This document shows, in pieces, positions 20,786 to 63,654 of a DNA stretch of 64,000 nt; position 1 is the stretch's first letter, and every line of letters starts with the position of its first letter. Under the pieces are notes generated by a model. That model was not told the origin of the DNA and searched no databases. It saw only the letters and a list, made by a program, of their open reading frames with translations. This DNA is from Dysidea avara (Eukaryota; Porifera; Demospongiae; Dictyoceratida; Dysideidae): positions 27,901,280-27,965,279 of the forward strand of contig NC_089272.1 of assembly GCF_963678975.1 (NCBI RefSeq). Direction: 5' to 3'. The translations under genes were made by a program, and so were the position numbers.

Positions 20786-23418
20786 CTAGTCAGACACTGC
20801 AATAAGTGGTTCTCGAAATTCTTTATAATTGTATGTCACATCTGGGATTTTATTGCTGACATTGTTTGCACTCATTTCAAATGATACTGTGTTACATTTT
20901 TTCCATATTCTCCACCTTTTGAAATGCGAACAGATGACATTCTTTAATTGCTGTACTGCATTACCACACAGTGTGGTTATACAAGTGTACATTATGAAGA
21001 ACATGAAATATACAAGTACTACCAAGATGAGGTACTGTGTTACTGTACTGTTGACATTGTTGGGATAGTTATACAGTGTAACAATATACACTATTAAGAG
21101 GTTTAATAAAACAGTATGCTCTAGTAAGTTGTTGAAATTACTCTTACATGGTTGTAGACTACCTTGCAAATAAAGTAAAATTCCTGTTACGATGATACCA
21201 CTCAAAATACTGATATGATTATCAAGGGCTGACAAACTAAAGAACACAGCTCTCAGTAGGAGTTGCAATCCAGTCCAGTAAAAGTATTTATCCTTATATG
21301 CTGCAAGATATGGATCAAGTAGTGGCTTGAACTTAGTAATAAAACTGAATCTTAGTAATGACCTTGTGAACAAAAGAGAGATGTTGAATAATAATAATGT
21401 TGAGAAAATGAACAGACAGACAATAAACAGTATAGTGAATTTCACTCCAAACAATTCAACACTTGTATCTACTGACCAGAATAACTGTGTGTGTCTACTG
21501 GGAAGATGAGTAATTTGAGTATAAAAGAACAAAACATGACACACCATTGATAAGATTTTAGTATAACTCAATAAGAAGAGTGTGGCAAGAACATGTAAAC
21601 CTCTTCGTGCTGTAAGTCTCTGTACTTTACTTGAGTAACGACTGCCCATGATCAGTGCTAATGCTATCATAATGAGGTAAAATGGAAATGCTAATTGTAA
21701 ACATGTTTTTGTGTAATTGGACATGTTGCTGTAGAAACAAGTTTCAACTCCTAGATCCAAATTGGAAATAGAAAATAACATACAAATAGGTGAATGACAG
21801 TTTGGCAACAATGTTGAATAATTTGTATTGACACTGTTCACGTAAAAAATGAATGTGTTAATAGTTCCATTAGTAACAGTGAGTTTCAATACAAACAACA
21901 TCATCACCAACACAATACCTGCTATTGCTATAGGTATTATGATAAACAAGAAGATGTTGGAACACTTTTTACACTGTGATGAACCAAACACAACACTGAG
22001 ACCTTGTTGACAATGTCCACATAACACACCAGATCTGTTAAACTGACACTGGATGTCAGGAGTGGACAGGTTGAGGTATGATGAGTAGGGTAAACAGTAG
22101 TCAAATGGACATTGAGAGGAGACATGATACCTGTGTGAGCCATTGACAGTATCAGCTGATATCCAACTGTTAGCAGGATGCAATATAGTGCCATCAACTA
22201 AGTTGCATGTAGTGACAGAAATAACATCGCAATTCAACACTGTATCACAATGACATCCTTGTAGATGACTCTGCAATGAGAATCCTACTGGACAAGGTAG
22301 TAGTTTAACATAGAATATTTCTGGTATTCCTTCAGCACTCAAGTACAGTTCACATTCAGTTTTATCAGACCACACAGTGTAGTTATACTGATTACAACCA
22401 GTATCTGTGTGCATTTGTGTCATTTCAACTGCTTTAGTAACCTTGCAACCATTTGGTGGTAAATGCGCAGTCTCAACAATTAACATCACTGATAATGACA
22501 ATCTTGGAACAATTAAATGAGTTATCAAAACTTGTCCAGGAATTGTCTGATCTAAATCATGTGAAGTACATTCATAATCAATTGAACTTGTACACTTGCA
22601 AATGCTTGAAGGAATGATTCCTATATCCTTCTTGTTGATGCCTATATTACTTATGTTCACAGTTTTATTAAAAATACTTTTAGCAGTAACGTATTTGTCT
22701 TCATAAATCCATTCACAGTTTGTAAAATATATATCATTTCTAATTAAATGTAGTGGAGCAGTGCATATGTTGTGCACTATTTCTAACCTAGTTGTTTTAT
22801 TCAAATAATCTGAAGTGTCAACAAACTGGAAGTAACACAGTGGCCTAGATATTTTACTGTGTGAAATTTCCCTTCCCAATGGAATATACACTATGTTATT
22901 AGTAGCTTTAATGATACTGTCATCAAATACAAAAATATATGAAATTTCTGCAGACCCAAAAACATATCTGGCATGGTTGTTTGAAATCTCAACATAATCA
23001 GCAATTGCCATAAATGACAGGTGTAGTTCTATAATGCTGTCATAGTAACTGTTGTTTACTATTACAGTGTTGCTACAATAGAACTCTCCATTGTTTAGTG
23101 ATATCAATCTTTCACCATGATGATGAGTATTAGAAGAGATAATAGTATTTTGAATATCTAAAACAACTGGGTGCAGCCACTGATATTCTGTTACATAGCT
23201 ATGATCTTTTATGATATTCATCACATGATTGTGGCTGAAATTGCAGTTTTCAGTTGTTATTAAAAATTTAGTTGATGCAACATTGTTGATAGTTACCATT
23301 GAAGTGATGTTCGTGTTTTGGTAAAACACACTGTTAGTAATATCCAATGAACTTTCTGTGCTTGAATAATAAAGTATATTAAATAGAGAAAGCTCTGCAT
23401 TATTTGCTGTAACATTAT
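20786..23418 (-). pseudogene. Multi-pass membrane protein copy 1, C-terminal part (split by transposon)
   Basis: Open from the insertion junction at 23418 down to the stop at 20786 (about 876 codons). Order: N-glycosylated ectodomain remainder, a Cys-rich neck (with LCGHCQQGLSVVFGSSQCKKC), TM1 right after it, then TM helices including FPFYLIMIALALIMG and a YWTGLQLLLRAVFFSLSAL segment, about eight in all, and a roughly 55-residue cytosolic tail. The helix-rich half with a K-D-K-Y-x-Y-W loop resembles the TRP-like multi-pass region that follows beta-helix ectodomains in some animal and protist surface proteins; this is a weak analogy. The N-terminal part lies at 37946..38833. Removing the insertion and one target duplication would rejoin the frame. 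Function unknown; sensor or receptor is a guess. Confidence 0.82.
23411..23418 (+). repeat. Left 8-bp target-site duplication
   Basis: AACATTAT directly abuts the element end GGGTGGTTC. An identical copy lies at 37946..37953. Confidence 0.93.
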
Positions 23419-24987
23419 GGGTGGTTCTATGTGTATCTTGTCCTTACAATACATCATCATTACATCATTGTGTAGTATATACTACAGTAGTAGGGAATAT
23501 GTAGTTAATAGTAACACTGGTAATATGGTAACATGGGTAGCACCAGTAACATGAGTAGTACTGGTATCATGGGTAGCACTGGTAACATGGGTAGCACTGG
23601 GTAGCACTGGTAGCATGAGTAGCACTGGTAACATGGGTAGCACTGGTAACATGGGTAGCACTGGTAACATGGGTAGCACTGGTAACATTGGTAGCACTGG
23701 TAGCATGGGTAGCACTGGTAACATGGGTAGCACTGGTAGCATGGGTAGCACTGGTAACATGGGTAGCACTGGTAGCATGGGTAGCACTGGTAACATGGGT
23801 AGCACTGGTAACATGGGTAGCACTGGTAGCATGGGTAGCATGGGTAACATGGGTAGGACTGGTAGCATTGGTATATAGCACTGGTAGCATGGGTAGCACT
23901 GGTAACATGGGTAGCACTGGTAGCATGGGTAGCACTGGTAACATGGGTAGCACTGGTAGCATGGGTAGCACTGGTAGCACTGGTAACATGGGTAGCACTG
24001 GTAGCAATGGTAACATTGGTAGCATGGGTAGCACTGGTAACATGGGTAGCACTGGTAGCATGGGTAGCATTGGTAACATGGGTAGCACTGGTAACATGGG
24101 TAGCACTGGTAGCATGGGTAGCACTGGTAACATGGTAATACTGGTAGCATGGGTAGCACTGGTAACATGGGTAGCACTGGTAGCATGGGTAGCACTGGCA
24201 ACATGGGTAGCACTGGTAGCATGGGTAGCATTGGTAACATGGGTAGCACTGGTAACATGGGTAGCATGGGTAGCACTGGTAACATGGGTAGCACTGGTAG
24301 CATGGGTAGCACTGGTAACATGGGTAGCACTGGTAGCATGGGTAGCACTGGTAGCACTGGTAACATGGGTAGCACTGGTAGCAATGGTAACATTGGTAGC
24401 ATGGGTAGCACTGGTAACATGGGTAGCACTGGTAGCATGGGTAGCATTGGTAACATGGGTAGCACTGGTAACATGGGTAGCATGGGTAGCACTGGTAACA
24501 TGGGTAGCACTGGTAGCATGGGTAGCACTGGTAACATGGTAATACTGGTAGCATGGGTAGCACTGGTAACATGGGTAGCACTGGTAGCATGGGTAGCACT
24601 GGCAACATGGGTAGCACTGGTAGCATGGGTAGCACTGGTAACATGGGTAGCACTGGTAACATGGGTAGCACTGGTAGCATGGGTAGCACTGGTAACATGG
24701 GTAGCATTGTTAGCATGGGTAGCACTGGTAACATGGGTAGCATGGGGTGCACTGGTAACAGGGGTAGCACTGGTAGCATGGGTAGCACTAGTAACATGGG
24801 TAGCACTGGTAGCGTGGGTAGCACTGGTAACATGGGTAGCACTGGTAGCATGGGTAGCACTGGTAACATGGGTAGCATAGGTTGCACTGGTAACATGGGT
24901 AGCACTGGTAACATGGGTAGCACTGGTAGCATGGGTAGCACTGGTAACATGGGTAGCACTGGTAGCATGGGTAGCACTGATAGCATG
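23419..24987 (+). repeat. Left terminal inverted repeat with 18-bp minisatellite
   Basis: About 90 bp of unique end sequence, then about 1.48 kb of units close to CATGGGTAGCACTGGTAA, alternating A/G at the last base so that 36-bp pairs are common. There are scattered CAATGG and ACATTGG variants and higher-order blocks (for example 24130..24320 resembles 24540..24700). Because 18 is divisible by 3, all frames stay open; the resulting ORFs are artefacts. Confidence 0.95.
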
Positions 24988-25019
24988 TACGCAGCAGTAC
25001 TGTAATTATCACACAGCAG

Positions 25020-25542
25020 TACTGGTACATTATCACTTGTAAAACAAGTTTAATTCAAGACTTTAGCCAGTGTTCACTTCATGGGTAGCACTGTTTGGAC
25101 ACACATGCCAATAGACACCACTTTCCCAGTCTCAGGTTATAGCTCATTGTAAAAGAAACGTTTTTAACAACTGTAGCAGAGAGAACTGTGTTACGCTATC
25201 GTGAACCGACTTTTACTTTAAGGCATTACTAATGTCCATTTGATCCCATTGGGGTTGAAATAGCTCAAATACATGAGAAGTTATAATCAGTCAAACTGAA
25301 GGGTATAAAGGTCCCTTCCTTGCAGATTCGATCACATATACACTTTATGTACTGTTATGGTATACCAAGAGTCCATAATCTAATACAGCATTTCTCCATC
25401 AACAAGAGTCCATTGAGCTAATTAGAAGTGCTGATTGTTACCATATGACCACATTTTATTTATATTCATTCCAAAGAAGCCTTGTATTAAAGGGAGTCAA
25501 AGAGCTTAAAGGGCTGCCAGGGCTGCTTGCCAGCTGGAGGGC
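25020..25542. other. Inner flank of left arm, no gene
   Basis: Unique AT-rich sequence with a stray array unit near 25083 and a right end of a TGTGACC subfamily-B MITE (about 25255..25338, ending ttcgatcaca before TA). Confidence 0.6.
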
Positions 25543-26557
25543 GGGCGTCTGGATTCAGTGGAATGGAATGGTGGACTGGAACGGTGGAATGGACTGGAAT
25601 GGTGGAATGGACTGGAATGGTGGAATGGAATGGTGGAATGGACTGGTGGAATTCCGGTAGACTATTCCGGTAGACTGGCCATGGACTCCGACGCTGCCGG
25701 GATTATACTCAGCACCATAGATATTATAGACTACGTAGGTATATACCAGTACGTATGGCAGAAGTCAGCGTGATGCCAATACAAAACTTATAATCTCCAA
25801 TCGATAAGCGACTGTGCGGAAAGGGTCTGGCCACGCGAGACCAGTACCCCAGAACATTGTTAACGCTCCCGCATAGCTACACTGAGTTTTGTAATGATTT
25901 GGACACAATTATAATTACACCTGTGCATTATAATCATACCTACACAGTACACAATATAATTATAATAATGCACGCTCAGCTACAACCAACGATAATTAAT
26001 AATACATGCGCTAAGAGTTTGAGAGATAAGTGCCACCTAATGGATTGGAGTCATAGATAATATAAGCACGTATTATCTATGCTGGGACTTTCGTACATCA
26101 GTTCAGTTGTAATGCATCACACAGTCGATTCAACAAATCAAATGTAATTGGCATTTCAGCTGCACGTGATCTAGCTAGCTCTTAATTAATTGATTATAAT
26201 TATTACAAGTCGACATCCGTATAGATATGTACAGTGGATAATGTAGAAAGTGACTAGCTATGTCGACGTCGGAGCACGATTCAGAAGATGATGAACAGAC
26301 GCTTGGTACGTGATTTAAACCATAATCTAAATAAGTTAGACACCGCGACCAAGCGATTTAGTAACCCTTCGCGCCCTCACTGTGCTCAGGACGCAGGGAC
26401 GCTACAGCTGTGTATAATCCAAGAAGCGTCGGAGTCCATGGTCAGTCTATCGGTATTCCATTGTTTGTTCCAGTCCAGTCCATTCCACCATTCCATTCCA
26501 GTCCAGTCCATTCCACCATTCCAGTCCACCATTCCATTCCACTGAATCCAGACGCCC
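25543..26557. mobile_element. Mutator-like non-autonomous element 1 (9-bp target duplication)
   Basis: Inverted ends gggcgtctggattcagtgga and its reverse complement, followed by GGAATGG-rich repeats and a further matching segment. Arms are about 190 bp (to about 25735 and from about 26365). The 9-bp duplication CTGGAGGGC lies at 25534..25542 and 26558..26566. The interior is CpG-richer than its surroundings and holds an exon-like ATG segment (26260..26305). Nine-base duplications and long inverted ends fit MULEs; no transposase is present. Confidence 0.82.
26260..26305 (+). other. Exon-like segment inside the Mutator-like element
   Basis: ATG followed by 15 codons in total, rich in acidic residues (MSTSEHDSEDDEQTL), ending at a good donor GTACGTG. 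It could be a captured first coding exon or chance. No partner exon is seen inside the element. Confidence 0.3.
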
Positions 26558-26929
26558 CTGGAGGGCAGCCATTCAAAGACATTGGAATGTAATAAGATGG
26601 TTTGGTGGTAACCATTGGTTAATTAATTGATAGTTTGGTAGTGACCACAGACCAAACCCCAGCAGACAGTGGGGTAATCTACTTGTATTGAAATGCAAAG
26701 TGCTCTTATTACAGTAGTATCATTGAGTACCATCATTTAACAGGTATATAGTGAGTAAGTGACTGCATTTATACATACATGTACTCTAATGGATGATTCG
26801 AAGTCACAGATTATCCAATTATGAACAGGGCTTGGCCCCAGCAGGTTCAGATAAACAAGGTCCCACTGTAGATAAAATGTGGTCATACAGGACAGAGTAG
26901 ACATCTCTTCTTTCATAGACTTTTGATGA

Positions 26930-28425
26930 ATACACATGTGATACACACACTTGATTTGTACATACATTAATGATACACACTTCATGTACTTACGAGGAGT
27001 ACCTTAGTGATACACATGTGATGTACTTATGATGTGAACCTTAATGATACACTTGTGATACACACTTCAAGTACTCACGATGTGTACCTTAGTGATACAC
27101 ATGTGATGTACTCATGAAGTGCACCTTAATGATACACTTGTGATACACACTTCAAGTACTCATGATGTGTACCTTAGTGGTACACATGTGATGTACTCAT
27201 GATGTGCACCTCAATGATGCGATTGTGATCACACAATTCATGATGTGTACCTTAATGATGTACTCATGATGTGTACCTTAGTGATACACTTGTGATACAC
27301 ACTTCAAGTACTCATGATGTGTACCTTAGTGATACACATGTGATGTACTCATGATGTGCACCTCAATGATACACTTGTGATACACACTTCAAGTACTCAT
27401 GATGTGTACCGTAGTGATACACATGTGATGTACTCATGCTGTGCACCTTAATGATACACTTGTGATATGCACTTTAAGTACTCATGATGTGTACCTTAGT
27501 GATACACATGTGATGTACTCATGATGTGCACCTTAATGATACACTTGTGATACACACTTCAAGTACTCATGATGTGTACCTTAGTGGTACACATGCGATG
27601 TACTCATGATGTGCACTTCAATGATGCACTTGTGATCACACAATTCATGATGTGTACCTTAATGATGTACTCATGATGTGTACCTTAGTGATGCACTTGT
27701 GATACACACTTCAAGTACTCATGATGTGTACCTTAGTGATACACATGTGATGTACTCATGATGTGCACCTTAATGATACACTTGTGATACACACTTCAAG
27801 TACTCATGATGTGTACCGTAGTGATACACATGTGATGTACTCATGCTGTGCACCTTAATGATACACTTGTGATACACACTTCAAGTAGTCATGATGTGTA
27901 CCTTAGTGATACACATGTGATGTACTCATGCTGTGCACCTTAATGATACACTTGTGATACACACTTCAAGTACTCATAATGTGCACCTTAGTGATACACA
28001 TGTGATGTACTCATGCTGTGCACCTTAATGATACACTTGTAATACACACTTCAAGTACTCATGATGTGCACCTTAATGATACACTTGTGATACACACTTC
28101 AAGTACTCATGATGTGTACCTTAGTGATACACATGTGATGTACTCATGCAGTGCACTTTAATGATACACTTGTGATACACACTTCAAGTACTCATGATGT
28201 GTACCTTAGTGATACACACATGATGTACTCATGATGTGCACCTCAATGATACACTTGTGACCACACAATTCATGATGTGTACCTTAATGATGTACTCATG
28301 ATGTGTACCTCAGTGATACACATGTGATGTACTCAAGCTGTGCACCTTAATGATACACTTGTGATGCACACTTTAAGTACTCATGATATGTACCTTAGAT
28401 GATACACATGTGATGTACTCATGAG
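26930..28425 (+). repeat. 85-bp-unit satellite array
   Basis: About 17 units. Each unit has two related halves, a 48-bp half beginning gatacacttgtgatacacac and a 37-bp half beginning gatacacatgtgatgtactc. Some units carry a variant half with tgatcacacaattcatgatg. Non-coding. Confidence 0.93.
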
Positions 28426-28766
28426 ATGTCTATGGTGCATTCATTGTAAGTTTTAGAAAACTACAATATTTGTAACTTTCCTTTTTTTGTCTACAACTTT
28501 GCATTCTGCTTTGCAAGTATATGTGACCAGATCTGTGATTAGGAGTCTTATAGCCTTTCCAATTGTGAACGCATCAAGTAAAAATGGAACCTTAGACATA
28601 CTTAAAAAAAAAAAACCTTTTACTTTAGACTCATGTTGTACAATGCATTGACTGTTCACATGCCAAAAATGGTAAGGATATGAGGTATAGAACCCATAGT
28701 TTTTCAGCCCATAACTGAAAGGACAAACACGTCATTAATTGATGACAATTGTATACGTACATACAG

Positions 28767-30347
28767 TTATAAAAATGAAAGCCAACGTTTGTTTGAAATA
28801 AAAGTAGTGTACATGTGTTTAAGATTTGCAAGTTTGGTTGCTGATATTTGTTTGGTACAATTTTTTTCCTTGTAGGTATCATTTTCAGTGCATAACACAT
28901 TTTCATCAATACTTCGATCACTTTGCAGGTGTATAGTAGAATTGGTATAGCTTCCAGTATAGCAGAGATTCCGTACTTTGCTGACAACCTTTCCAGTTGC
29001 TGAATTTTTTACAAACAGGAAGTCATAGAGGCTACGAATACCCAAAAATTTGGAGTATTTTGATAGCTTATTTCGCCAGTCTGACACAATACTACCATCA
29101 TCAACAATAACTTCGGCATAAGGAAGGATTACTTTTTGTAGCTCTTCTGTAGTAAATACATCACTTTTATTGTATGTTTTTGAAATTTTTGAAAACAACA
29201 AATCAGGAACAAATTTGGTGTGACCTGGAATCATGAATGATACATGAATAAAATCTAGTTTACCTTGCTGAATCATTTCCATAGCCCAAGCCATTGTAAA
29301 ACAGTTTTTATTAGTGCTAGAAGCATTATCCAAAAACAAATGTACCCGACGCACAAAATCTGGTAAACCAGCAAGGTAATGAGTGAGATAGGAAACTGTA
29401 TGGTCTGTATTCTTTGGACTAATTCTTTCATCAAACAAGTACACAGCAGCTTTATTGGTGGCATGATTGACAATGCCAAACACATCGTGGTTGAGTTTCT
29501 GAAAATAGTAGGTGCTACCAGGCTGAGGTGACTCACCCCAGTAAGGAACTAGCTTTCCCATTTGGTAGTCTGCACTTACAACAAGGTTAAATTTGTGCTT
29601 TAATGTTGCTAATTCCCTATCCTCAGTTTCTGTAAGGCAAGGCTTCTCAACAAACTCTAAAATTCTTTCCCACTCATCAGCGCACTGTACAGTGACTTTC
29701 TGATAGTAGTCGTGTGCTCCTTTGGCTTCTTCACGATGTATCTCTAGTGAATGTTTCATACCACTTAATTCATCTTCCAAGTGCTTCAGATCATCGGGCA
29801 AGGTATCAGAAGATTGTTTCTTACGATTTATGGTAGTCTGTTGTGAGGAAATCTTTGTCTTCATTTCTGCACAAGTATCACAATAGTCTTCTTGATGCAG
29901 ACAAACCGCATGTTTAGGTCGATGCTTCTTAAGCCAGTTATGGGATGAAGCATTGGAACACTCTCCTTTGCCAGCCTCATGTTGTGATCGGTTGAATTTT
30001 CCTACAACTGATCGTCTAGCACGTTCTTCATAGTTGGCAATACCAGTTTTAGGAGTTTGTATTGTAGAAAAATTTGGAAGAAAGTAAAATGTTGGACCAG
30101 TAGAGTCTGCACTACGGCCATTCGGCTGACTGTTAACATCAACAAATTCTAGAAAATCATTCATAACACATGTCTTGGTATAATTAGATACTTTTCCACT
30201 GTTTCCGTGTCTTGAATGGGGAGTTCTAACATCAACTGTGGCAGATGGATCAAGAAACCTCCACCATTTCTTAAAACTAACATCTAAACCTTCTGGCATC
30301 ACAACATACTCACCAAGATGTTCCTTTTCAACTTCACCTTTTGACAT
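28767..30347 (-). pseudogene. Transposase-like protein, main ORF (DUF7869-like)
   Basis: 526 codons. An N-terminal region (MPEGLDVSFKKWWRFLDP) is followed by a zinc-type C-H-C-C cluster (CLHQEDYCDTC, about residue 150), a coiled coil (about 165-205), and then a core that reads like an RNase-H fold: VVSADYQ (first Asp), VHLFLDNASSTNKN (second Asp), and PGHTKFVPDLLFSKISKTY (a third acidic position is possible). The GHTK..PD..F and LDN...NKN motifs match my recollection of the DUF7869 family found in invertebrate mobile elements; a transposase role is inferred from this and from the flanking inverted ends. The true start lies upstream, since an upstream frame (30344..30600) continues the protein after a 1-nt shift. 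Confidence 0.7.
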
Positions 30348-30603
30348 AAGTACTCTGTAATGGCTCCTTAAACTGTTTTCTCTTTATAACTCTTTGACGA
30401 GCAATCCTTTGCTTGGATATCCCAAAGGCGATTCTAACACATGCACAACAGAAAAGATAGTTCCCCATGGTGTCAAACATGTTCTCTCTTAACCAGTCAT
30501 TCTGGCGCTTCACATCCCGATAATGTGTACCAGGCTTTTTGGGGTTGGGATTAACCTTCTTCTTTTTCTTTAGTTCAGTGCCTTGATGAACTAACTGCTT
30601 AAA
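30344..30603 (-). pseudogene. Upstream coding segment of the transposase-like gene (frameshifted)
   Basis: Open frame from a plausible acceptor (tatatttaag) encoding a Lys-rich run, then THYRDVKRQNDWLRENMFDT and FCCACVRIAFGISKQRIARQ, stopping just as the main frame begins. The Cys-rich patch and the basic segment suit the DNA-binding N-terminus of the same protein. The two frames overlap, so one small indel separates them. Confidence 0.6.
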
Positions 30604-30755
30604 TATATGGCAGGTTATATAGAGCCGGTACCGGTTACACTGGTGCTGCAGCTAGTCATATTATTTAGTTTCTACGTTATAAACATCCGACTGAAGTGAA
30701 CAAGAGTGAAGAAGAAACCAAAGCTGAACCCTAGCCTACCCCTAACGCTAAGGAA

Positions 30756-31097
30756 CTACTTTTCGCATCCCCTAAAGTTGAATGCTCGGGGCAACCTACT
30801 AGTGCCGGCACAATAGCCGTTAGTGTTTGCAAACTGGTACCGGCTAAATATACACTTCGTAAATATATCCGCGTATTGGAGAAGAACAGGCTCACATTTT
30901 GAACAAACACTTTGCGTAGTAGTTCCCGCACTGTCATCAAGGCTGGTCCCGCTGGTGTCATTAGAACTACCTTCTGAAAACGAAGTTTCCAGGGACGGTG
31001 TATGGCAGTATGGATGCCTTGATGCTCCACCTAAGTAGCGCTCTTTTTGTTCCTTTCTTCTTTCCTTCCTTCTTGTTACTTTCAGCGTGGATTCCAC
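30756..31097 (-). CDS. Probable first exon of the transposase-like gene
   Basis: ATG at 31097. It encodes a basic start (MESTLKVTRRKERRKEQKER), a Ser/Thr-rich linker, and CSKCEPVLLQYADIFTKCIF. It lies inside the inverted ends and on the same strand as the main ORF. The splice donor is not resolved. Sequence like its 3-prime part recurs at 43590..43690, so it belongs to a repeated element. Confidence 0.45.
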   Translation of the reverse strand: MESTLKVTRRKERRKEQKERYLGGASRHPYCHTPSLETSFSEGSSNDTSGTSLDDSAGTTTQSVCSKCEPVLLQYADIFTKCIFSRYQFANTNGYCAGTSRLPRAFNFRGCEK

Positions 31098-31755
31098 ATG
31101 TCTTAAACGGCACGGAAATATGCAGTAATATTAATAAATATACCCAAAATATCCGTGTAGTACGCGAAAATATAATTATTTCTAAATTTTCCAAGTTCAA
31201 TTATCTCAAAAAGTATAAACGCGTCTAAGGTTCCGTTTTTACTTGATGCATTCACAATTGAATATACTTGGTAATCCATAACTTGACATGTAAGTATGGT
31301 ACCAGCCTGAAATTTGTTCACTTTACACTCCTAACATAGTAATATTCCTGGATGTAATTTTAAAACAATAAGTTAAACACATATCAGTTATAACTCATCA
31401 AAATTTGCAAAATTTGGAAAGGCTATAAGATCCCTTTTCGCTGATCCAGTCACGTATATCAAAAAATATGGAATAAATTCTGAAATCACTCAGTGGCCAG
31501 TGATCTGTACTTACCATTAAGGTGATCTGCCTAAAGGGGCCTAGATGTGTAAGTTCATATGAGTTAGAAATGCTACTAAGCCAATTGTATATTTGCACTT
31601 TTTATACGCAGCTGTATAGCTACAGTACAATGTCTCCAGTATTACACATGTTTCCAGGATTACTTTTACTTATACCCATATCACCATTGTTATCCGTATT
31701 ACCATTATGTATGGATTCACCAGCTATAATTCAATATGTAAAAGGTTAACAAATG

Positions 31756-31995
31756 TTCAAGTATACTGGAGGTCTGGCTGATGAAGCCACTATCTTTTAC
31801 AAACGTCTGGCTTCTCTTTTGTTCAATGAGTGGGGGGATAGTTACTCGGTTACTCTAGGCTGGCTCAGTTGCCGTCTTTCTTTGCTGCACTCTGCTATTG
31901 CCTGTATCCATGGTGCTTGATCATCATCTGGTCACTTTGACAGAACTCCACCTCCAATGGATCTGGTTAGAGTGGAATCACGCTTAAAGAACTGA
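31756..31995 (+). pseudogene. C-terminal fragment of a mobile-element protein with in-frame TGA
   Basis: 80 codons reading FKYTGGLADEATIFYKRLAS ... SCRLSLLHSAIACIHGA, one TGA, then SSSGHFDRTPPPMDLVRVES to a stop. The GG-E-FYKRLA and C-R-LSFSLLRSAI pattern is one I associate with C-terminal tails of invertebrate mobile-element polyproteins; I cannot name the class. Confidence 0.5.
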
Positions 31996-31999
31996 TTTC

Positions 32000-32765
32000 T
32001 GCATGAGCTTTCTGTTTTGTTTATTGTACTTGTGTATTTACCATTTTAAAAAGTATACTGCAGACATACTAGTAGACATTAATCTCTGATTCTATACTGA
32101 CTAAATTAGGGATTAAGCAACATCTGCTAGTAAATTAAATATGCAGGTATAGGAAATCTCACTACTTTTTACTTGTTTATGTACTTCTAAGGTTGGGCAA
32201 TGTTTCAATAAATCACCAACATCACCTAAGCAAGTTCTTGCAATACTATTATCACAAGACGCAAGTTTTCACCTTTGTAATATTATTACATAGGCAACAT
32301 TTATCATAATTTGCAATAATCATTGCATTTATTATCTATTTTGCATCTCTGATCTAGGCCTCACATTTGATATAGTTCATGCATATCATTGCTAACTATG
32401 CCAGTTTGTTACCTTGTTAGCAAAGAAATTGTGCTTTTAACCTAATTCTCAATGAAAAAAAGTAGTTTATATGGACTCTGGCTTGTCTCACTCTGTGGTT
32501 GTGTTTCAATTTTCACATGCAAATATTGCAATAATCACCTCATGTAATAATCGCATGTCACAAGTTCAATATTGCCCAACCTAGCCGAATTTTAATTTTT
32601 CCTTCTACTTGTACAGTAATGCTAAGAGTTCCAGTATTCCATAGAGTGGGTTATTTTTGAAGGGTTTATAATTTTGTATATAATTCAAATAAATGATTCT
32701 TAAATTTATGTCAAGACATTCTATTATACAAAATATTGAATTATATGGTTGTCAAATGTGCTTAG
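32000..32765. other. Non-coding filler inside the large element
   Basis: AT-rich. Possible diverged foldback relative of 17875..18091 (aattagggattaag near 32106, tttttccttctacttg near 32597). No coding sequence recognised. Confidence 0.45.
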
Positions 32766-32999
32766 TGTGGGCATGTACATACACAGCAGTATGTTGTTAA
32801 ATGGTGGTATCCCATAACTCTTCGTCAATATTTTAAACAAGTGTCAAAGAAACTTCTAGACCCAGACAAGCCTATATCTCAAGTAATAACACTAGCTTTG
32901 ATTCAGGATGCCAATGCGGTCTATCTGAAAACTGCTGCTCATTCCAACACAAATCATACAATCAGACTTACAGGAGTTCAACTGTCTAGATTTGCTTAA
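32766..32999 (+). other. Exon-like open segment, unknown
   Basis: After an acceptor-like tgtgcttag there are 77 sense codons and a stop (VVKWWYPITLRQYFKQVSKK, then PDKPISQVITLALIQDANAV, then TIRLTGVQLSRFA). Composition looks protein-like and lacks low-complexity bias. No family is recognised. It may be the last exon or a relic of a mobile-element gene. Confidence 0.35.
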
Positions 33000-33271
33000 A
33001 AGCATGGTGATAAGGAATGATTCATCATTTTACAAAACAATATTGTGTACAAGGAATCCCAGAAGTTCAGTCAGCACATAAAAGTACAAATATACTAGAG
33101 TTTTATTAATTGGAGCGGTGATTTCTAGAACCCGGTGATTGCTAGAAGCTGATAATTAGCTGTTTTTACTATAATTGGAAATTGGTTGTAATGGGCTGTG
33201 GCCAGCAGATTATTGGTCTATTTAGCAGCAGCAGCTGCAGTACCACCAGAAGGCTGGTGGCAAAGGCTCTG

Positions 33272-34349
33272 GGGCATCTGGATCAGTGGAATGGAATGGC
33301 GGAATGGACTGGAATGGAATGGTTGACTGGAATTGAATGGTGCAATGGAATAGTATTTAGGTAATTTCAATTACTAGTCACCTCTTTATAAAGACCACCT
33401 TCTAACAAAGACCACCTCTTTATAAACACTGTTTAACTTTTATGTTTAAATTGCTGCTATCTTGTTGTTTTAAAGTGTATCCTCATAGGATGGTCTTATT
33501 GATCAGTTGTGTGCTGCATGCCCTAGAAAAGTCAGAGTGATATCTGATTTGTAATACAGCCATGCAAAATCAGTTTGGCTGTACAAAACTGACATACCCA
33601 TCAAGCTAAAAATAACTGACAACTACAGGAGAATAATTTTTATAAATTATAGCCAGTTAGTTGCCGGTATTGACATTTATTTCTTGGCTTCACCAGATAT
33701 CATGGCCTCACCAGATATCATTATCTGGTGAGTACAAGAAATGAATGTCTATACCAGCAACTAACTGGCTATAATTTTTAAGAATTTGGTCCTTTATCAC
33801 TGACTAAGCACAGTGTTGCTGCATTTCTAAGTAATTACGTATACCTTTAACTATAATTTTCTAGTAATTTAGCTGCCTTTTTCTCCTCTATAATGACAAT
33901 TGGAAAAGGTACCAATTACAGGGAATTAATTAGGAATGCAGCAGACTACACAAGTCAATGATAAAAGACCAAGATTTTTTAGTTGCCAGTATAATTAACA
34001 TTCATTTCTTTGCTACACCAAATGTTAGCTCCATTAGTTGCATTGCTTTTAGTTTTGTGGATGTATCGTCTTTTTTTGTATATAGCCAAGCTGTTTCTGT
34101 ATGGGGTAGCTATTACTGTATTTATAATAAATCAGATATCACTCTGGCTTTTCTAGACACAACATGTGGCACACAATTCATTGATAAGACTGTCTTATAG
34201 GGATATATCACTCTACACAACAATAAAATGATCTTTGTAAACAGGTGGTCTTTATTAAGAGGTGACTACTGACTGAAATTACCTAAGTACCATTCCATTC
34301 CAGTCCACCATTTCATTCCACCATTCTATTCCACTGAATCCAGACACCC
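33272..34349. mobile_element. Mutator-like non-autonomous element 2 (9-bp target duplication)
   Basis: Ends gggcatctggatcagtggaa and, inverted, gggtgtctggattcagtgga, with GGAATGG repeats. Arms extend through a shared gtcacctcttwataaagacc segment (about 33380..33410 and 34240..34262). The duplication AAGGCTCTG lies at 33263..33271 and 34350..34358. Nested inside is a relative of the element at 41042..41520. It shares ends with 25543..26557. Confidence 0.82.
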
Positions 34350-34358
34350 AAGGCTCTG

Positions 34359-36287
34359 GTACTACTTAAGTTGATGTGTTGTAGAAACCACAAAGATAAA
34401 CAGTGATGGTTTAGGCTGCTCTTGTCTGACTACCAACTTTAAGTGTACAATATCAGCATTGGCTGGCTTTACTAGCACTACTTTTAGTGGAATATATACA
34501 CAAGTATAACTTGCAGAAACGTATCAGTTAACTATTAGTAAAACATGGTAAAAATAATTATATTGGATATAGGTTTTCCCAAAAAACAGTAGGAGTCATT
34601 ACAACATTAATATTATTCCTTGCCTTTATACCCTCCTCTATCACAGTGCCTGGACATGAGGTAGAATTCTGAAGGAAGCAAGCATCCAGTCAACATGATT
34701 GGGTGTGGGTTTGGTAGGTGTACAGGTGAAAGGGGTCTATTAAATTAGGCAAGTAATGGTAAACTGCCTAGCAGCAAGAAAGGAACATAATGCTTAGGTG
34801 CAAAACAGACTATTTTGGGATCTATATTTTATTTATGCCAAAATTAAACCAATTTAGAGGGCCACAGAAAGACAGTAATGAACTGTCTTTCCATCCAAGC
34901 ATTATGATCCTGTAACAATATTTCATGCTCCTATGAATGATTATTAACCAGGTATATAAACAGAGGGTGAAGGAGACAAGGGGAGAGGTACAAACAAGTT
35001 CAGATTCACCATCTAAAAGGAAGAGGAGAGAGCACTCTTGAGTTGTAGTTGAAATAACATTATGTGTGAACAGCACTCAGCATAGTCTTCATGGTTGAAA
35101 TATATTTTAGGTTGCTGTAAGACTTAAAAGCAGTTACAATGTTGCAACTCTGCCAGCAATACTTTATTGGAGTTGTTTAGTATGCAAGAAAGGTGTTGTT
35201 AACCAGTCACTCAAACTTGGGCATGAGATGTAGCCTATAATCACATTGTGAACCCATTTGTTACAAAGTGCTTAACTTATGATGATTAAGGTAGTAAAAA
35301 GGAGCACCAAAGATGTATCCTTACACAGAGCATAAAATATGCTATGGACCCAATGGTAGATTAAAGTGAGGTGGGGTATTTAACTAATGATACTGTTTCA
35401 AGATTTTAGTGTTGTGCTAAATGTCTTTTTAATAAAAGCATTTTGCTCCCATGATACACCAACTAAACATTCGCTACTGCATTGTGGATGGCTAAGTGTT
35501 GGCATACGTACAGCTGTATGTACTTAGTCTAAATCTCTATAATATTGAAATGCATGTGAACTATTATCTGTTGTTATGTGAGGCTCCATCCACATTACTG
35601 AATGTGTAGCCATTCTGTTTGTTGGCTTTTTCTTTCAAGTGTATAACTATTAGCACTTTACTCAAGAATTTTCAATCCCTTATAATTGCAGCCCAATGGT
35701 TTGTCAGTTACTTTACCAAGTGGAAGGTGACTTTTATTTATTTTTATTTTATGAACACTCCCACCAAGATTGCTCCACTTTTATAAAGATGGCAGTTGTA
35801 ATATTTTTTTTTTGTCCTAACTGCTTCTTTTAGCAGTCTATTTTTTACTGCAGCAGTAATTTGTATGCACTTAGATGAAAGCACAGACATGAGACTGCTG
35901 ATAAAAGCATGCCACACTAGTGCCTATCCACACTAGTGCTTATCATTACTATTGCAGTAATGATGTATTGCTATCACCCTCATGGTTGAATATCACAATA
36001 TCACTCTATCAATGTAGCCATGTGGTATTTGCTTTTCGTCTTAGCAAGATCCTGTGTTATTGGTACACTCATGTCTATTCAGGTAGAACTGCACTTTCAA
36101 ATATGTGATATGTTGGTATTGCCACTAAAGCAGTAAGATAATATACAACGAAATAACAATGTTTGAAAACATAACATTGCACAATTGTACGCACAAACAT
36201 ATAGAATGTAGTGGCAATTAGTCAGCTTCCTGCAACTGGGGAGGGGAGTTATAATGTGAACTACCGACCTCAGCATGAGTGAGTAGT
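34359..36287. other. Non-coding right interior of the large element
   Basis: AT-rich, no recognisable gene or repeat family apart from short homopolymers. Open frames here are under 90 codons without features. Confidence 0.55.
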
Positions 36288-36321
36288 GGGTAGCACTGGT
36301 AACATGGGCACTGGTAGCGTC
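36288..36321 (+). repeat. Stray array units in opposite orientation
   Basis: GGGTAGCACTGGTAACATGG followed by GCACTGGTAGCG. This is the left-arm orientation, although it lies just inside the right arm, which runs the other way. Confidence 0.8.
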
Positions 36322-36445
36322 GGTACATATTACTGCATTACAATACAATAATCATTGGTCATAATTCCTACTTAATAACACCTGTATTACCTATGTCAAC
36401 TTCACTCATGATACTGTGCATAGCATATCCAACTTACCTATGTGC

Positions 36446-37945
36446 TTTCCATGTTACCAGTGCTACCCATATTACCAGTGCTACCCATGATACCATTGCT
36501 ACCCATGTTACCGGTGCTATCCATGCTATCCATGTTACCAGTGCTACCCATGTTACCAGTACTACCCATGCTACCAGTGCTACCCATGTTACCGGTGCTA
36601 CCAGTGCTACCCATGTTACCAGTGCTACCCATGTTACCAGTGCTACCCATGTTACCATGCTACCCATATTACCAGTGCTACCCATGATACCATTGCTACC
36701 CATGTTACCGGTGCTATCCATGTTACCAGTGCTATCCATGTTACCGGTGCTATCCATGTTACCAGTGCTATCCATGTTACCAGTGCTACCCATGTTACCA
36801 GTACTACCCATGCTACCAGTGCTACCCATGTTACCAGTACTACCCATGCTACCAGTGCTACCCATATTACCAGTGCTACCCATGTTACCAGTGCTATCCA
36901 TGTTACCAGTGCTACCCATGTTACCAGTACTACCCATGCTACCAGTGCTACCCATGTTACCGGTGCTACCAGTGCTACCCATGTTACCAGTGCTACCCAT
37001 GTTACCAGTGCTACCCATGTTACCATGCTACCCATGTTACCAGTGCTACCCATGCTACCAGTGCTATCCATGTTACCAGTGCTACCCATGTTACCAGTGC
37101 TATCCATGTTACCAGTGCTACCCATGTTACCAGTACTACCCATGCTACCAGTGCTACCCATGTTACCGGTGCTACCAGTGCTACCCATGTTACCAGTGCT
37201 ACCCATGTTACCAGTGTTACCCATGTTACCAGTGCTATCAGTGCTTTCCATGTTACCAGTGCTACCCATGTTACCAGTGCTACCCATGTTACCAGTGCTA
37301 CCCGTGTTACCATGCTACCCATGTTACCAGTGCTACCCATGCTACCAGTGCTACCCATGTTACCAGTGCTACCCATGCTACCAGTGCTACCCATGTTACC
37401 AGTGCTACCAATGTTACCAGTGCTACCCATGTTACCAGTGCTACCAATGTTACCAGTGCTACCCATGTTACCAGTGCTACCCATGTTACCAGTGCTACCC
37501 ATGTTACCAGTGCTACCCGTGTTACCAGTGCTACCCATGTTACCAGTGCTACCCATGCTACCAGTGCTACCCATGTTACCAGTGCTACCCATGTTACCAG
37601 TGCTATCAGTGCTTTCCATGTTACCAGTGCTACCCATGTTACCAGTGCTACCAATGTTACCAGTGCTACCCATGTTACCATGCTACCCATGTTACCATGC
37701 TACCCATGTTACCATGCTACCCATGTTACCAGTGCTACCCATGCTACCAGTGCTACCCATGTTACCAGTGCTACCCATGCTACCAGTGCTACCCATGTTA
37801 CCAGTGCTACCCATGTTACCAGTGTTACCCATATTACCAGTGTTACTATTAACTACACTTTCCTACTACTGTGGTATATACTAAACAATCACACAATGAT
37901 GTAATGATGATGTATTGTAAGGACAAGATACACATAGAACCACCC
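36446..37945 (-). repeat. Right terminal inverted repeat with 18-bp minisatellite
   Basis: The same unit as the left arm in reverse complement (CATGTTACCAGTGCTACC), about 1.4 kb, then about 95 bp of unique end sequence to 37945. Variants TACTACCC and TGCTATCC are private to this arm and form local blocks, so the arms have diverged as arrays while the terminal 55 bp stayed identical. Confidence 0.95.
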
Positions 37946-37953
37946 AACATTAT
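37946..37953 (+). repeat. Right 8-bp target-site duplication
   Basis: AACATTAT immediately after the element end CCACCC. Identical to 23411..23418. Confidence 0.93.
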
Positions 37954-38833
37954 ACACTTTACTGTTGATAAAAACTATATTAGATGATTTAGCATTGCCA
38001 AGTGAATGTGAAGTGTGATAATAATAATATAGTACACATGTATTGCACAAATCCATCAGTACAGTTTTGTTAATAGTTATCAAAACTTTAATTTTGTTTT
38101 GCAGATCAATGTAGAACACATTATGAATACTTTTGATGAAGCAAAATGTTTGTTTGTAAGTAAAGTTTTGTATGTACATGTTGCTATCTACCATATTATA
38201 ACTACCATGATGGTAATAAATTATCACCAATCCATTGGTGACAGCTATAGGATTAAAGTGCAATTGTAAATTTACCATGGTAACAACAACATTATTCAAC
38301 TCAGACCTCATCATTGTGTTAATAATAACTAATCCATCAATTCCAATATCAACAATCATTGACACATTCGTAACAATTGCTGATATACAGTAGTGAATGT
38401 TTAGTGCTGCATCACGATAAAGAATGGAACTATTATCATATATTTTATTAAGATGAATTTTATTTGCAATTAGCACAGGGTAGTAATTTTTACCGCACTC
38501 AACTATTTCTATATTTTCTACAACAATCTTAGTGACATTTATTATGGCTATACCAACTGATGAGTTGGAACATTTGAATATGCTGTGGTTTTTCCAATTA
38601 TTGAAATATTTCTCACATTATTTAAAAGAAAATCTTCTTTAATCTCATAGCGCCATGGCAAGAATATCAGCTGGGTATTAGAAGTGAAACACATTTCACT
38701 ATTTCTAAGACATTGTGATAAGGTGATAGTGTTACTGTTGTTGGTAGAGTGATGATCATCAGGTGTGATGTAGAGTGTACGAGATGTTGCTTGTAGAGAT
38801 AGTGATGTTAATGTTGCCACTAGCAGGTGTATA
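37946..38833 (-). pseudogene. Multi-pass membrane protein copy 1, N-terminal part
   Basis: It begins at a splice acceptor (tttctacag, first exon base 38833, phase 2, the same as copy 2). It encodes the end of a hydrophobic leader (HLLVATLTSLSLQATS), then TLYITPDDHHSTNNSNTITL shared with copy 2, then the start of an Asn-glycosylated repetitive ectodomain of short beta-strand-like I/V-N-V-T runs, as in right-handed beta-helix proteins. A net 2-nt gain relative to copy 2 near 38589..38594 shifts the frame (stop at about 38548); the frame resumes to the transposon junction at 37946. The initiator exon upstream was not found. Confidence 0.78.
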
Positions 38834-38940
38834 CTGTAGAAATCAACAAGTACAAATGCATATCAAAAGACATGGTAGAATACTAAGAGTATCATGTTTC
38901 CATAAACCTGGTGAGTCACACTAGTGTTTCATTAATATTA

Positions 38941-59647: not shown

Positions 59648-62600
59648 TTAGTCAGTCACTGCAATGAGCGGCTCTCGAAAATCTTTATAGTTGAATGTCA
59701 CATCTGGGATTTGATTGTCTGTCATTTCAAATGTTCTACTTTTCTTCCATATTCTCCATCTTATGAAATGAGAATGGACGACATCCTTTAATTGCTGTGC
59801 TGCATTACTATACAGTGTAGTTATACAAGTGTACATTATGAAGAACATGAAATATACAAGTACTACCAAGATGAGGTACTGTGTTGCTGTACTGTTGACA
59901 TTGTTGGGGTAGTTGTACAGTGTAATTACATATGCTAATAAGAGGTTCAGTAGAATAAATGACTCTAGTAAGTTGTTGAGTCTGCTCTTAAAGGGCCATA
60001 ATACACCTTGTACACAAAGCAATATTGCTGTAAATATGATTCCACTTAAAAGGCTAACTTTAGTGTCAAGAGCTGACAAACTGAAAAATAAAGCCCTTAT
60101 TAATAATTGCAATCCAGTCCAGTAAAAGTATTTGTCCTTATATGAACTAAGATATGGATCAAGTAAAGGTTTAAAAGTGTTAACAAATTTAAACCTTAAT
60201 AATTGTCTTGTGAATAATAGGAGGATATTGAATGACATCAACAACAAAAAGATGAGTATACAGATCACAAAGAGCGTAGTAAATCTACCACCAAACAATT
60301 CAACACTTGTATCTATTGACCAGAATAATTGTGTGTGTCTACTGGGAAGATGAGTAATTTGAGTATAAAAGAACAAGACATGACACACCATTGATAAGAT
60401 TTTAGCATAACTCAATAAGAAGAGTGTGGCAAGAACATGTAAACCTCTTCGCGCTGTAAGTCTTTGTACTTTACTTGAGTAACGACTGCCCATGATCAGT
60501 GCTAATGCTATCATAATGAGATATAATGGAAATGCTAATTGTAAACATGTTTTTGAATAGTCGCTCATGTTATTGTAGAAACAAGTTTCAATACCTAAAT
60601 CCAAATTGAAAATAAAAAGTAATACACAAATAGGTGAATGACAGTTTGGTAGCAAAGTTGAATTATTTGTATTGACAATGTTCACGTAAAAGATGAATGT
60701 GTTAATAGTTCCATTAGTAACAGTGAGTTTCAACACAAATAACATCATCACCAACACAATACCTGCTATTGCTATAGGTATCATGATAAACAAGTAGATG
60801 TTGGAACATTTTTTACACTGTGATGAACCAAACACAGCACTGAGACCTTGTTGACAATGTCCACATAACACACCAGACCTGTTAAACTGACACTGCATGT
60901 CAGGAGTGGACAGGTTGAGGTATGATGAGTAGGGTAAACAGTAGTCAAATGGACATTGAGAGGAGACATGGTAGCTGTGTGAGGAATTGTGCGAGCCATT
61001 GATGGTATCAGCTGATATCCAACTGTTAGCAGGACGTAATATAGTCCCATCAACTAAGTTACATGTAGTGACAGAAATAACATCACAATCCAACACTGTA
61101 TCACAATGACATCCTTGTAGACGACTCTGTAATGAAAATCCTACTGGACAAGGAAGTAATTTAACATAGAATATTTCTGGTATTCCTTCAGCACTCAAAT
61201 ATAGTTCACATTCAGTTTTATTAGACCACACAGTGTATTTATACTGATTACAACTGATGGTCATGTGTGTCTGTGCCATCTCAGTTGCTCTAGTGATTAT
61301 GCAACCATTTGTTGGTAAATGTGCAGTCTCAACCATTAACATTACAGATTTTTTTGGTGATGATAATAGCCTTGGTACAATTAAATTAATTGTCAAATCT
61401 TGACCAGGTATTGTTTGACCTAGTTCATGTGAGGAACATTCATATGTAGTTGAATCTGTACATTTACAAATACTTGAAGGAATGATTCCTATATCCTCTT
61501 TGTTAATGTGTACATTTGTCATATTTATGGCTTTTGCAAAAACTTCATTAGGGGTAACTGACTTGTAGTTATTTTTTCTGTCATACACCCATTCACACTC
61601 GGTAAAATAAATTTCAAGGTCAATTAACTGTGTAGGAGCAGTGTATAAATTATTTACTATGTCTATTCGTGTTGATTTACCCAACGAATTAGAAAATTCT
61701 AAGAATTGAAAATAACATAATGGATTTCCTTGGTGGTTGTATGCAATTTCCTTTCCAAGTGGCCAGTACACTATATTCTCTGTTGCTTTGAAAATGCACT
61801 GAGTAAATAGTACAGTATATGAAAATTTCATAGAAATATAAGATATCTGGCATGGTTGTTAGAAATATCTAAATAGTCTGTAATTACAAAGGTTGATAAA
61901 TGAAGTTCTATAATATTTTCATAGTAACTGTTATTAACAATTTTGCACTTGCTGCAATAGATCTCACCATTGTTTAATGATATTAAACTTTTACCATTAC
62001 TATGAGTATTTGAAGAAATAGTGGTATCATGAATATTTATTATAATAGGATGATGCCACAGTACTGCTATCTCACCAGTATAATCTTTTATAATGCTCAT
62101 TGCTTGATTGTGATTAAATGTAGAATTTTTAATTGATATAATAAAATCATTTCTTGTGAAAGAATTGGTAATATTGATCATCGAATTAATGTTAGTATTT
62201 TTGTAAAACATACTGTTCATTATTGTAAGAGAATCTTTATTGTCTGATGTATGAAGAATTGACAGCATGGAAAAGCCATTAATATCCCTGGCAGCATTAT
62301 TGTGCATTTGGCAGCTCATTAAATTCACTTCAACTGCATTATGATTAGTCTCACTACAATAATACAATGCACGTACATTACACAAATCTTTGAAAACTGT
62401 TTGGTCAACTCTTACCAAAATCTTATATTCATTGCGTTGAAATGAAATGTAAAGCACATTTTGAATTTCTTTGCTGTTACAAGCTGTTTGCTTGTAAGTA
62501 ATATTTCGTATGTATAAAACATTCATTATTGCTTGCATGTAGTAGAAGACAACTAGGCCATCATTGGTAGAATTATGTGATTGTGAGGATGTCATCACAG

Positions 62601-63136
62601 TGATAAGTATGTTACTTAATGTAGATTCCATCATAGCATTAATAACATGTATTCCATCAGTACCACTACTGACAATTATTGAAACATTTGTAACACTGAC
62701 AGCCACACAGTAGTGCATATGTACTGCTGCATTTCGATGAAGCACTTTGGTATCGACATAAGTAGGGACATTAAAAGCATCCAATTTATCAATATAATTT
62801 TTTCTACATCCAACAACTTTCATATTATGCACAGCTATTTTAGTGACATTTATGACAGCTATACCAACTGATAAATTTGCACAATTGATTGTGCTGTGAT
62901 TTCCAATAACTGTGATATTATTTAGGTTTTGTATGACAAAATCTTCCTTAAGATTATGAACTCCCCACCAAAAGAACAGTTGGGTATTAGAAGTGAAACA
63001 CATTTCACTATTTCTAACACACTGTGATAAGGTGATAGTGTTACTGTTGTTGGTAGAGTGATGATCATCAGGTGTGATGTAGAGTGTATGAGATGTTACT
63101 TGTAAAACTAGTAAGGTTGCCACTAGTAAGAAATAA
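59648..63136 (-). CDS. Multi-pass membrane protein copy 2 (one frameshift)
   Basis: About 1,160 codons in one long exon after an acceptor (gtgtttcgcag; first base 63136, phase 2). Order: hydrophobic leader (YFLLVATLLVLQVTS), TLYITPDDHHSTNNSNTITL, a long ectodomain of I/V-rich strands with many N-x-S/T sites (beta-helix-like, to about residue 450), further Cys-containing domains (CTDSTTYECSSHELGQ; GCNQYKYTVWSNKTECELYL), a Cys-rich neck (about 725-780), about eight TM helices (about 782-1100) and a short tail ending FREPLIAVTD. Relative to copy 1 there is a net 1-nt loss near 61830..61850, which splits the frame into 63147..61828 and 61831..59648. This is either a mutation or a consensus error in an AT-rich stretch. 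No transposon lies at the position where copy 1 is interrupted. Function is not known; a surface receptor or channel-like protein is inferred. Confidence 0.85.
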
Positions 63137-63654
63137 CTGCGAAACACACCACAAATGTTTAACCTACAAAGGAATTATGCATTCTAAGCACTCTTGTATA
63201 GACGTACAGTGGTTGCATACTCAGTTATAGCCATTGTCATTCTACATAGGATGCTAGCATTAAATATATATATATATATTCAAAAGCTGTAGTACAAGTT
63301 GCTGTTGACCTTCAATGTTTGTCACTGTAAAGCTCTAGTAACTATAACAATATACTATAGTATGCAGATGTATTGCATCTACATGGAGCAAATATGCATA
63401 TACATTGTACATTAATATCTATCCAAGGCTACATAAATTGTCTATATTAATATACTTAATGTGTACCTGATCATTGTTAACAAAGCAGCAATTGTATAGT
63501 ATCTCAAATATATCTGCTGCATTCTATACAGTCATAAAACTAAATACTGTATTGTTCTTGTTACGTATTAATTTTATTTAATTTTACTGAATACACATAC
63601 AGAACAATACACTTGACAACTTTAAATTGTCTGTTTTAAGTGTTGTAATGTATA
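63137..63654. other. 5-prime flank / first intron of copy 2
   Basis: Should contain the initiator exon of copy 2 or lie within its intron; I could not identify it. A short TA repeat lies at about 63264..63280. Confidence 0.45.

Follow-up and report, generated by a model that had tools for sequence, protein, structure and literature searches.

The element at the locus and its copies

The 64,000-nucleotide stretch of contig NC_089272.1 of the sponge Dysidea avara analysed here (assembly GCF_963678975.1, positions 27,901,280 to 27,965,279; hereafter the window) contains, at 23419-37945, an element of 14,527 bp. With a probability of about 0.8, it is a copy of a foldback-type, apparently non-autonomous family of cut-and-paste DNA transposons moved in trans. 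The limits given in an initial annotation of this DNA proved exact to the base, and the perfect 8-bp duplications it placed directly outside the arms were found again (AACATTAT on both sides). The two ends are inverted and their outermost 55 bp are identical; the conserved tip begins GGGTGGTTCTATGTGTA..., and the tip sequences of the element ends are GGGTGGTTC / GGGTCTGTC. Inside the tips, an 18-bp unit was detected in both arms by Tandem Repeats Finder (TRF), 84.6 times in the left (23526-24987) and, inverted relative to the left, 81.0 times in the right (36449-37846), in agreement with the identical 55-bp tips and the approximately 80 copies per arm first described. The window copy thereby shows the structural traits of foldback elements: long terminal inverted repeats (TIRs), variable-number tandem repeats which form most of each TIR and leave the two ends of one copy unlike, and a target-site duplication, here of 8 bp. 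The ends are made up as follows:

23411..23418, unstranded: left 8-bp target-site duplication AACATTAT
23419..23510, + strand: left tip, "L" type, its first 55 bp the same as in the right tip
23511..24987, + strand: left array of 9/18-bp GGTARCAYK units
36449..37846, - strand: right array of 9/18-bp GGTARCAYK units, inverted
37852..37945, - strand: right tip, "R" type
37946..37953, unstranded: right 8-bp target-site duplication AACATTAT

The host genome (550.8 Mb) was searched with the tip, which gave 44 matches (40 of 84 candidates scored). The 22-mer GGGTGGTTCTATGTGTATCTTG was found, with at most three mismatches, at 62 genomic places vs. one for a reversed-pattern control, and chance is therefore excluded. 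Twelve copies were compared, eleven in full and C1_28.5 for its left half. All eleven full copies have perfect 8-bp duplications, each different, as do three more tip pairs (C3:38.56, C3:34.97 and C2:31.31-31.36), and C1_28.5 has TCTTTTTT on both sides, provided that its left tip is counted one base shorter. As a whole, matching 8-bp duplications, all of different sequence, were found in 15 of the 15 main-family copies with both ends seen; six tips are unpaired (C3:38.205, C2:7.66, C7:17.35, C15:11.23, C11:19.51 and C7:8.03). The full copies measure 6.8-17.8 kb and one tip pair lies 53.9 kb apart. The uninterrupted arm arrays range from 506 to 2,298 bp, a range which omits the right arm of C1_28.5 and the left arm of C2_5.5, where a second tip interrupts the array after 280 bp. 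The tip is thus not single-copy: a family exists whose members have the same tips, 8-bp duplications and arrays of varying length, which upholds the transposon reading of the initial annotation.

Pairwise divergence of the body is 1.0-1.9% among nine copies and 4.3-4.6% between these and C4_13.1, the lower values indicating a recent spread of the main family. Tips had been described as undiverged next to diverged arrays. Within the main family, 35 tips of 55 bp, a set without the left tip of C1_28.5, which is one base shorter, have 13 mismatches in total (0.7%), while the body has diverged by about 0.5-1% per copy, as derived from the pairwise values, i.e. at about the same rate. Special conservation of the tips inside the main family is ruled out by these figures, and tip conservation is visible only when families are compared with each other.

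The element interrupts a host open frame, of which two parts flank it:

20786..23418, - strand: 3' part of the interrupted host gene
37954..38617, - strand: 5' part of the interrupted host open frame

When the flanks are joined with a single duplication, a stop-to-stop frame of 1,098 amino acids results. It is colinear across the junction with a neighbouring paralogue at 59648-63174, which occupies two overlapping frames (identity 76% in an alignment of 734 positions and 47% in one of 369), and this colinearity indicates that the host frame was split by the window copy. The two paralogues, at 20786-38862 (the one that the insertion has split) and 59648-63174, lie near each other and represent a large, membrane-protein-like host gene.

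Concerning the interior, the following features were recognised:

24990..25542, unstranded: body, common to other copies
25543..26557, unstranded: nested 1,015-bp element with GGAATGG-repeat TIRs and the 9-bp duplication CTGGAGGGC
26558..28560, unstranded: body, including a second, internal tandem array
28561-28564 and 31256-31259: 4-bp duplication AATT of the DUF7869 transposon (read by eye)
28565..31255, - strand: nested 2.7-kb transposon with a DUF7869 open reading frame (ORF; 28767-30383) and TIR GTGAACGCATCAAGTAAAA... (ends read by eye)
31260..36430, unstranded: body without recognised coding sequence

The interior had been called a pile of other elements. A few nested elements are indeed present, but as a full description this is ruled out by the alignment of the body across copies: most of the interior is the family's own. 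The copies align through 24990-25542, 26558-28560 and 31260-36430, with copy-specific losses; once its two most distinct nested elements are subtracted, the window copy has about 7.7 kb of this common body. This body is shared wholly or partly with all 11 other copies compared (C3_36.0 is without most of its right part, and C1_28.5 was read for the left half only). A search with 1.9 kb of the right body, in which 40 of 287 candidates were scored, gave 17 places with 91-100% identity; at three of these the match is partial. Among the 12 copies, only the inserts at 25543-26557 (full length) and about 30608-30854 are unique to the window copy. An older GGAATGG-type element, with the 9-bp duplication AAGGCTCTG, lies in the shared body at 33272-34349. 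It and the element at 25543-26557 are both 1 kb long, with tips like GGGCGTCTGGATTCAGTGG, GGAATGG-type tandem repeats in their TIRs and 9-bp duplications; to judge from these features, they represent a second foldback-like family nested within the first. The internal array at 26963-28429 has periods of 85 and 407 bp, differs in length between copies and has relatives in sister families, and a degenerate array remnant lies at 31617-31765.

Besides the DUF7869 ORF, no other shared ORF of at least 120 amino acids was found in the eleven full copies and half of the twelfth, low-complexity frames excluded; every ORF of that length either represents the DUF7869 ORF (whole, in pieces or as a frame overlapping it) or falls wholly or partly within a copy-specific insert. 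Ten body ORFs chosen from 65 gave zero Pfam matches over the cut-off, the best match below it being GWT1 (19.5 bits vs. 29.6). The body is apparently non-coding. No recognisable transposase was found in any copy read, and none was linked to the tips.

Sister families, terminal arrays and changed ends

Matches to the first 40 bp of the tip, with 2-5 mismatches, lie at the outer tip of C8:24.36, at both ends of C1:45.49, and at C8:4.16 and C11:3.42; C8:4.59 was judged by eye to be the same as C8:4.16. The likeness of the C8:24.36 outer tip to the main tip stops after about 36 bp, and the relative at C1:45.49, 2.6 kb long, is flanked on either side by CATATTTT and has an array at each end. A second large family, with the tip GGGTCTGTCTATGTGTATCATG, gave 27 matches; for its copy C6:23.49 one end was read through the full tip and the array, and for another copy an internal stretch. 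Nine of its tip pairs were read: six have perfect 8-bp duplications, one has a duplication with one mismatch, one is shifted by a single base, as an insertion of one base would produce, and one has none. The unmatched pair lies 58.9 kb apart and may be mispaired; the other eight span 13.8-34.3 kb. At C8:24359267-24360713 (L052 768-2213), a tip with a GGTATCACT array directly abuts a tip with a GGTAATATG array that belong to another family, in 9-mer register. A 31-bp minisatellite, TTGTAGCTGAACTCTCTACAGGGTGACT, was also seen at several loci (C4:31805000-31818500, i.e. L050 and L051; also L046, L056 and L060). On C4 it forms two inverted arrays about 12.6 kb apart, and these loci are possibly a third type of element with minisatellite arms.

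Cut at GGTA, the arrays resolve into a base unit of 9 bp, GGTARCAYK. The 18-bp unit first reported, which is the TRF period, is thus a dimer, mostly GGTAGCACT+GGTAACATG. Of ten arrays divided into 9-mers, the window contributed two and six other loci the remaining eight; GGTA was required for the starting rotation only. On average, the four bases of GGTA have frequencies of 0.90, 0.93, 0.96 and 0.96, C or T at position 6 reaches 0.98 and A at position 7 reaches 0.86, while positions 5, 8 and 9 drift among the arrays. A GGTA-YA core of the 9-mer is kept across families. The arrays had been thought to expand freely; their lengths do vary, yet with this core retained. As for 40-mers, same-side arms of different copies share a mean of 0.24 (left-left) and 0.34 (right-right), and opposite arms 0.18 within one copy and 0.165 between different copies.

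With odds only slightly short of even, the arrays are functionless, neutral minisatellites which stand behind the tips by happenstance. In favour of neutrality, they differ more than fourfold in length, number only about 12 units at one related locus, and turn over fast. Such neutrality fits less well with their inward orientation on both sides and with the persistence of the 9-bp period and the GGTA-YA core in families whose bodies can barely be aligned. It also fits less well with Galileo, where TIR repeats hold binding sites of the transposase domain (PMC3688188).

Tips of the L and R types were assigned by eye in the 15 copies with both ends seen: seven are L/R and eight R/R, and the R/R copies keep intact 8-bp duplications. 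In six of the eight R/R copies, L-only and R-only 36-mers were mapped by position along the left arm. The tip region (60-125) is R-only in 6/6, and from 350 bp inward, L-only exceed R-only 36-mers in 6/6 (316 vs. 21 to 188 vs. 98). Of the six L/R controls, five have an inner left arm that is still L-like. An R-like outer array in R/R copies, suggested by a coarser split, was discarded, as the finer split shows that its signal is that of the tip alone. So, as far as the 36-mers tell, either the tip of R/R copies was replaced at or near the junction of tip and array, or the L tip is a derived form; since the most diverged copy, C4_13.1, is L/R, replacement is favoured. A second tip was found inside the array in C2_5.5 and C6:23.49.

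From the structure, the duplications, the copy number, the interrupted frame and the changed ends, all observed, we infer a mechanism in the following steps. A transposase made elsewhere would bind the tip as its recognition site, with the repeated 9-mers perhaps acting as accessory binding sites, by analogy with Galileo; it would pair the two ends, cut, and insert the element with an 8-bp stagger. Arrays would lengthen and shorten by unequal exchange or slippage, and exchange or gene conversion between arms would swap tips, the altered elements still being able to move.

Several points weigh against this account. Movement in trans is inferred because no transposase linked to the tips was found, and a spliced transposase may still lie within the body. 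The accessory role of the arrays is drawn from analogy, and a common origin of the arrays, combined with slow turnover, could account for part of the conservation at the core positions. In the R/R left arms, positions 115-200 are without R-only 36-mers in 6/6 and positions 200-350 are mixed; the exchanged piece would therefore be short. The inner left arm of the L/R control C4_13.1 has 77 R-only vs. 30 L-only 36-mers. Alternatively, R/R could be the ancestral state and the L tip the derived one, against which stands the L/R state of that same, most diverged copy.

A more far-reaching form of the foldback reading, which we consider rather unlikely, makes the arrays active: the 9-mer would be a repeated transposase-binding site, and since it is common to both arms and to related families, the arrays would let non-autonomous elements swap, duplicate or stack tips by recombination. 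If true, this would explain the R tip before an L-type array in R/R copies, the in-register tip duplications within arrays (C2_5.5 and C6:23.49) and the abutting tips and arrays of two families at C8:24.36.

Candidate transposases

The 5'-GG ends and 8-bp duplications appear to fit Merlin or Mutator-like enzymes best. hAT elements have ends beginning YA and 8-bp duplications; the duplication length agrees, but the ends read here begin GGG. Mutator-like elements (MULEs) have target-site duplications of 8-11 bp, a range which includes the 8 bp found here.

Movement by a Mutator-like transposase, as in Tm1, is a tentative possibility that we hold to be distinctly short of even. Tm1 has the same end architecture, duplications of 8-10 bp and a Mutator/Phantom-type transposase (PMC3169594); the ends here are G-rich and the host genome has 410 candidate MULE genes. 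Nevertheless, none of the 150 scored places among these candidates was seen, by eye, inside a tip pair. The nearest scored place lies 63 kb from a listed tip (an unpaired partial second-family tip on C9) and the next about 101 kb, and the duplications here are of 8, not 9 bp.

A Merlin-type (IS1595) transposase is an unlikely mover, although its features are close. Merlin elements have terminal 5'-GG, 8-9-bp duplications and, in several families, internal tandem repeats (PMC8101967). Nearly all ends read here begin GGG, one second-family tip reading GTGTC, and the 8-bp duplications agree as well. One of the 21 genomic DDE_Tnp_IS1595 matches lies inside the 53.9-kb copy. This match contains two stops, however, and its stretch is 99% identical to one on another contig which has no GGGTGG in the 3.7 kb read, so that it looks like part of another nested element and was rejected as proof of the mover; none of the other matches was seen, by eye, near a listed tip.

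DUF7869, a Pfam domain of unknown function, is matched by the ORF at 28767-30383 (E 3e-20). That its protein is the element's own transposase, the element being autonomous now or formerly, has a slim chance. In its favour, besides the window copy, 15 others have the ORF within or next to their tips (two of these with only one end seen), with 94-98% amino-acid identity over the best stretch, and open frames of 699 and 709 amino acids are kept in two fetched copies. Yet three distant DUF7869 paralogues each lie between inverted repeats of 37-39 bp spaced 2.7-2.8 kb from each other, and the window ORF is bracketed by inverted repeats of the same kind (about 35 bp). All four insertions read by eye have 4-bp duplications (AATT in the window; AAAT, ATTT and AGAT outside the main family), C4_13.1 has an empty site at the matching position, and a 95%-identical stretch lies at C8:33.63, distant from any listed tip. 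A reading in which DUF7869 owned the 8-bp ends was overturned by the repeats around the distant paralogues, the 4-bp duplications and the empty site. The TIRs differ from the ends of the host element, and an enzyme giving 4-bp duplications is unlikely to give 8-bp ones. DUF7869 is thus likely the transposase of the nested 2.7-2.8-kb transposon and probably not the mover of the 14.5-kb element, as far as these end features indicate.

The DUF7869 transposons at 28565-31255, C2:31547894, C13:11741988 and C4:31811911 are 2.7-2.8 kb long, with TIRs of about 35 bp which begin GTGA... in most ends. DUF7869 was not named in any paper found in a search of the open-access literature, no relatives of the ORF on viral contigs were confirmed, and a comparison with solved structures gave four weak matches (best E 0.43).

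Finally, an assembly artefact or a segmental duplication in place of a transposon is very unlikely and receives next to no weight: long near-identical arrays are difficult to assemble, but fifteen copies have different flanks and different matching 8-bp duplications, and an arm has, on average, more 40-mers in common with the same-side arms of other copies than with the opposite arm of its own copy.

Known foldback elements and significance

The initial annotation knew of no described transposon with such ends, but Tm1, Tetris and Galileo already have tandem-repeat ends. Long inverted repeats made of short tandem repeats are also found in Drosophila FB and in sea-urchin TU, the latter with 8-bp duplications.

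Tm1, a Mutator/Foldback element of Meloidogyne root-knot nematodes, has TIRs made mostly of variable-number 13-15-bp tandem repeats inside short tips (PMC3169594). It resembles the present family in this succession of a short tip and a TIR of mostly short tandem repeats unlike at the two ends, in its 8-10-bp duplications, its mostly non-autonomous copies and a nested element, and in one copy whose two ends have an identical tip motif (PMC3169594). It differs in unit length (9 bp here), in its tips, which are 7 bp and asymmetric, in its duplications, usually of 9 bp, and in that an element with a putative transposase is known; moreover, its same-motif copy is without a duplication, whereas the R/R copies have one (PMC3169594).

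Tetris/DAIBAM of Drosophila likewise combines a flanking domain, outer variable-number tandem repeats and a middle without apparent coding capacity, and no transposase was found for it; its units, however, are of about 220 bp and few per arm, and its flanking domain reaches 866 bp (PMC4079207). Galileo, of the P superfamily, shares long, internally repetitive TIRs, independent expansion of the ends and recombinant TIRs, but has 7-bp duplications, repeats of about 210 bp in one D. mojavensis group and a known P-type transposase (PMC3573991); additional sites bound by the THAP domain lie in its repeats (PMC3688188). Rehavkus has a minisatellite inside the element near one end, but there it precedes the 3' TIR, the transposase is MULE-like with a PHD finger, and the duplications are of 9 bp vs. 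8 bp here (PMC6446971). A coral MITE considered as a further parallel is not comparable.

No description of the present family was found in the open-access literature, which is weak evidence of absence. Foldback architecture with tandem-repeat ends is already known; the present family is an addition to it, and its changed ends are its most interesting feature.

In this genome the foldback architecture is common, with at least two families of 14-kb-class elements, the copies of the first being 1-2% apart. Sister families with tips of the same kind but drifted arrays make it possible to ask which parts of the ends are constrained, and their comparison addresses the question of why foldback ends keep evolving. 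Mobility could survive a change of ends, as the altered-end copies with their intact duplications show, and an autonomous partner, if found, would make the role of the arrays directly testable. If the arrays are active, a long non-coding element would have, in a modular "replaceable end" strategy, a means of keeping its ends in step with a transposase that changes.

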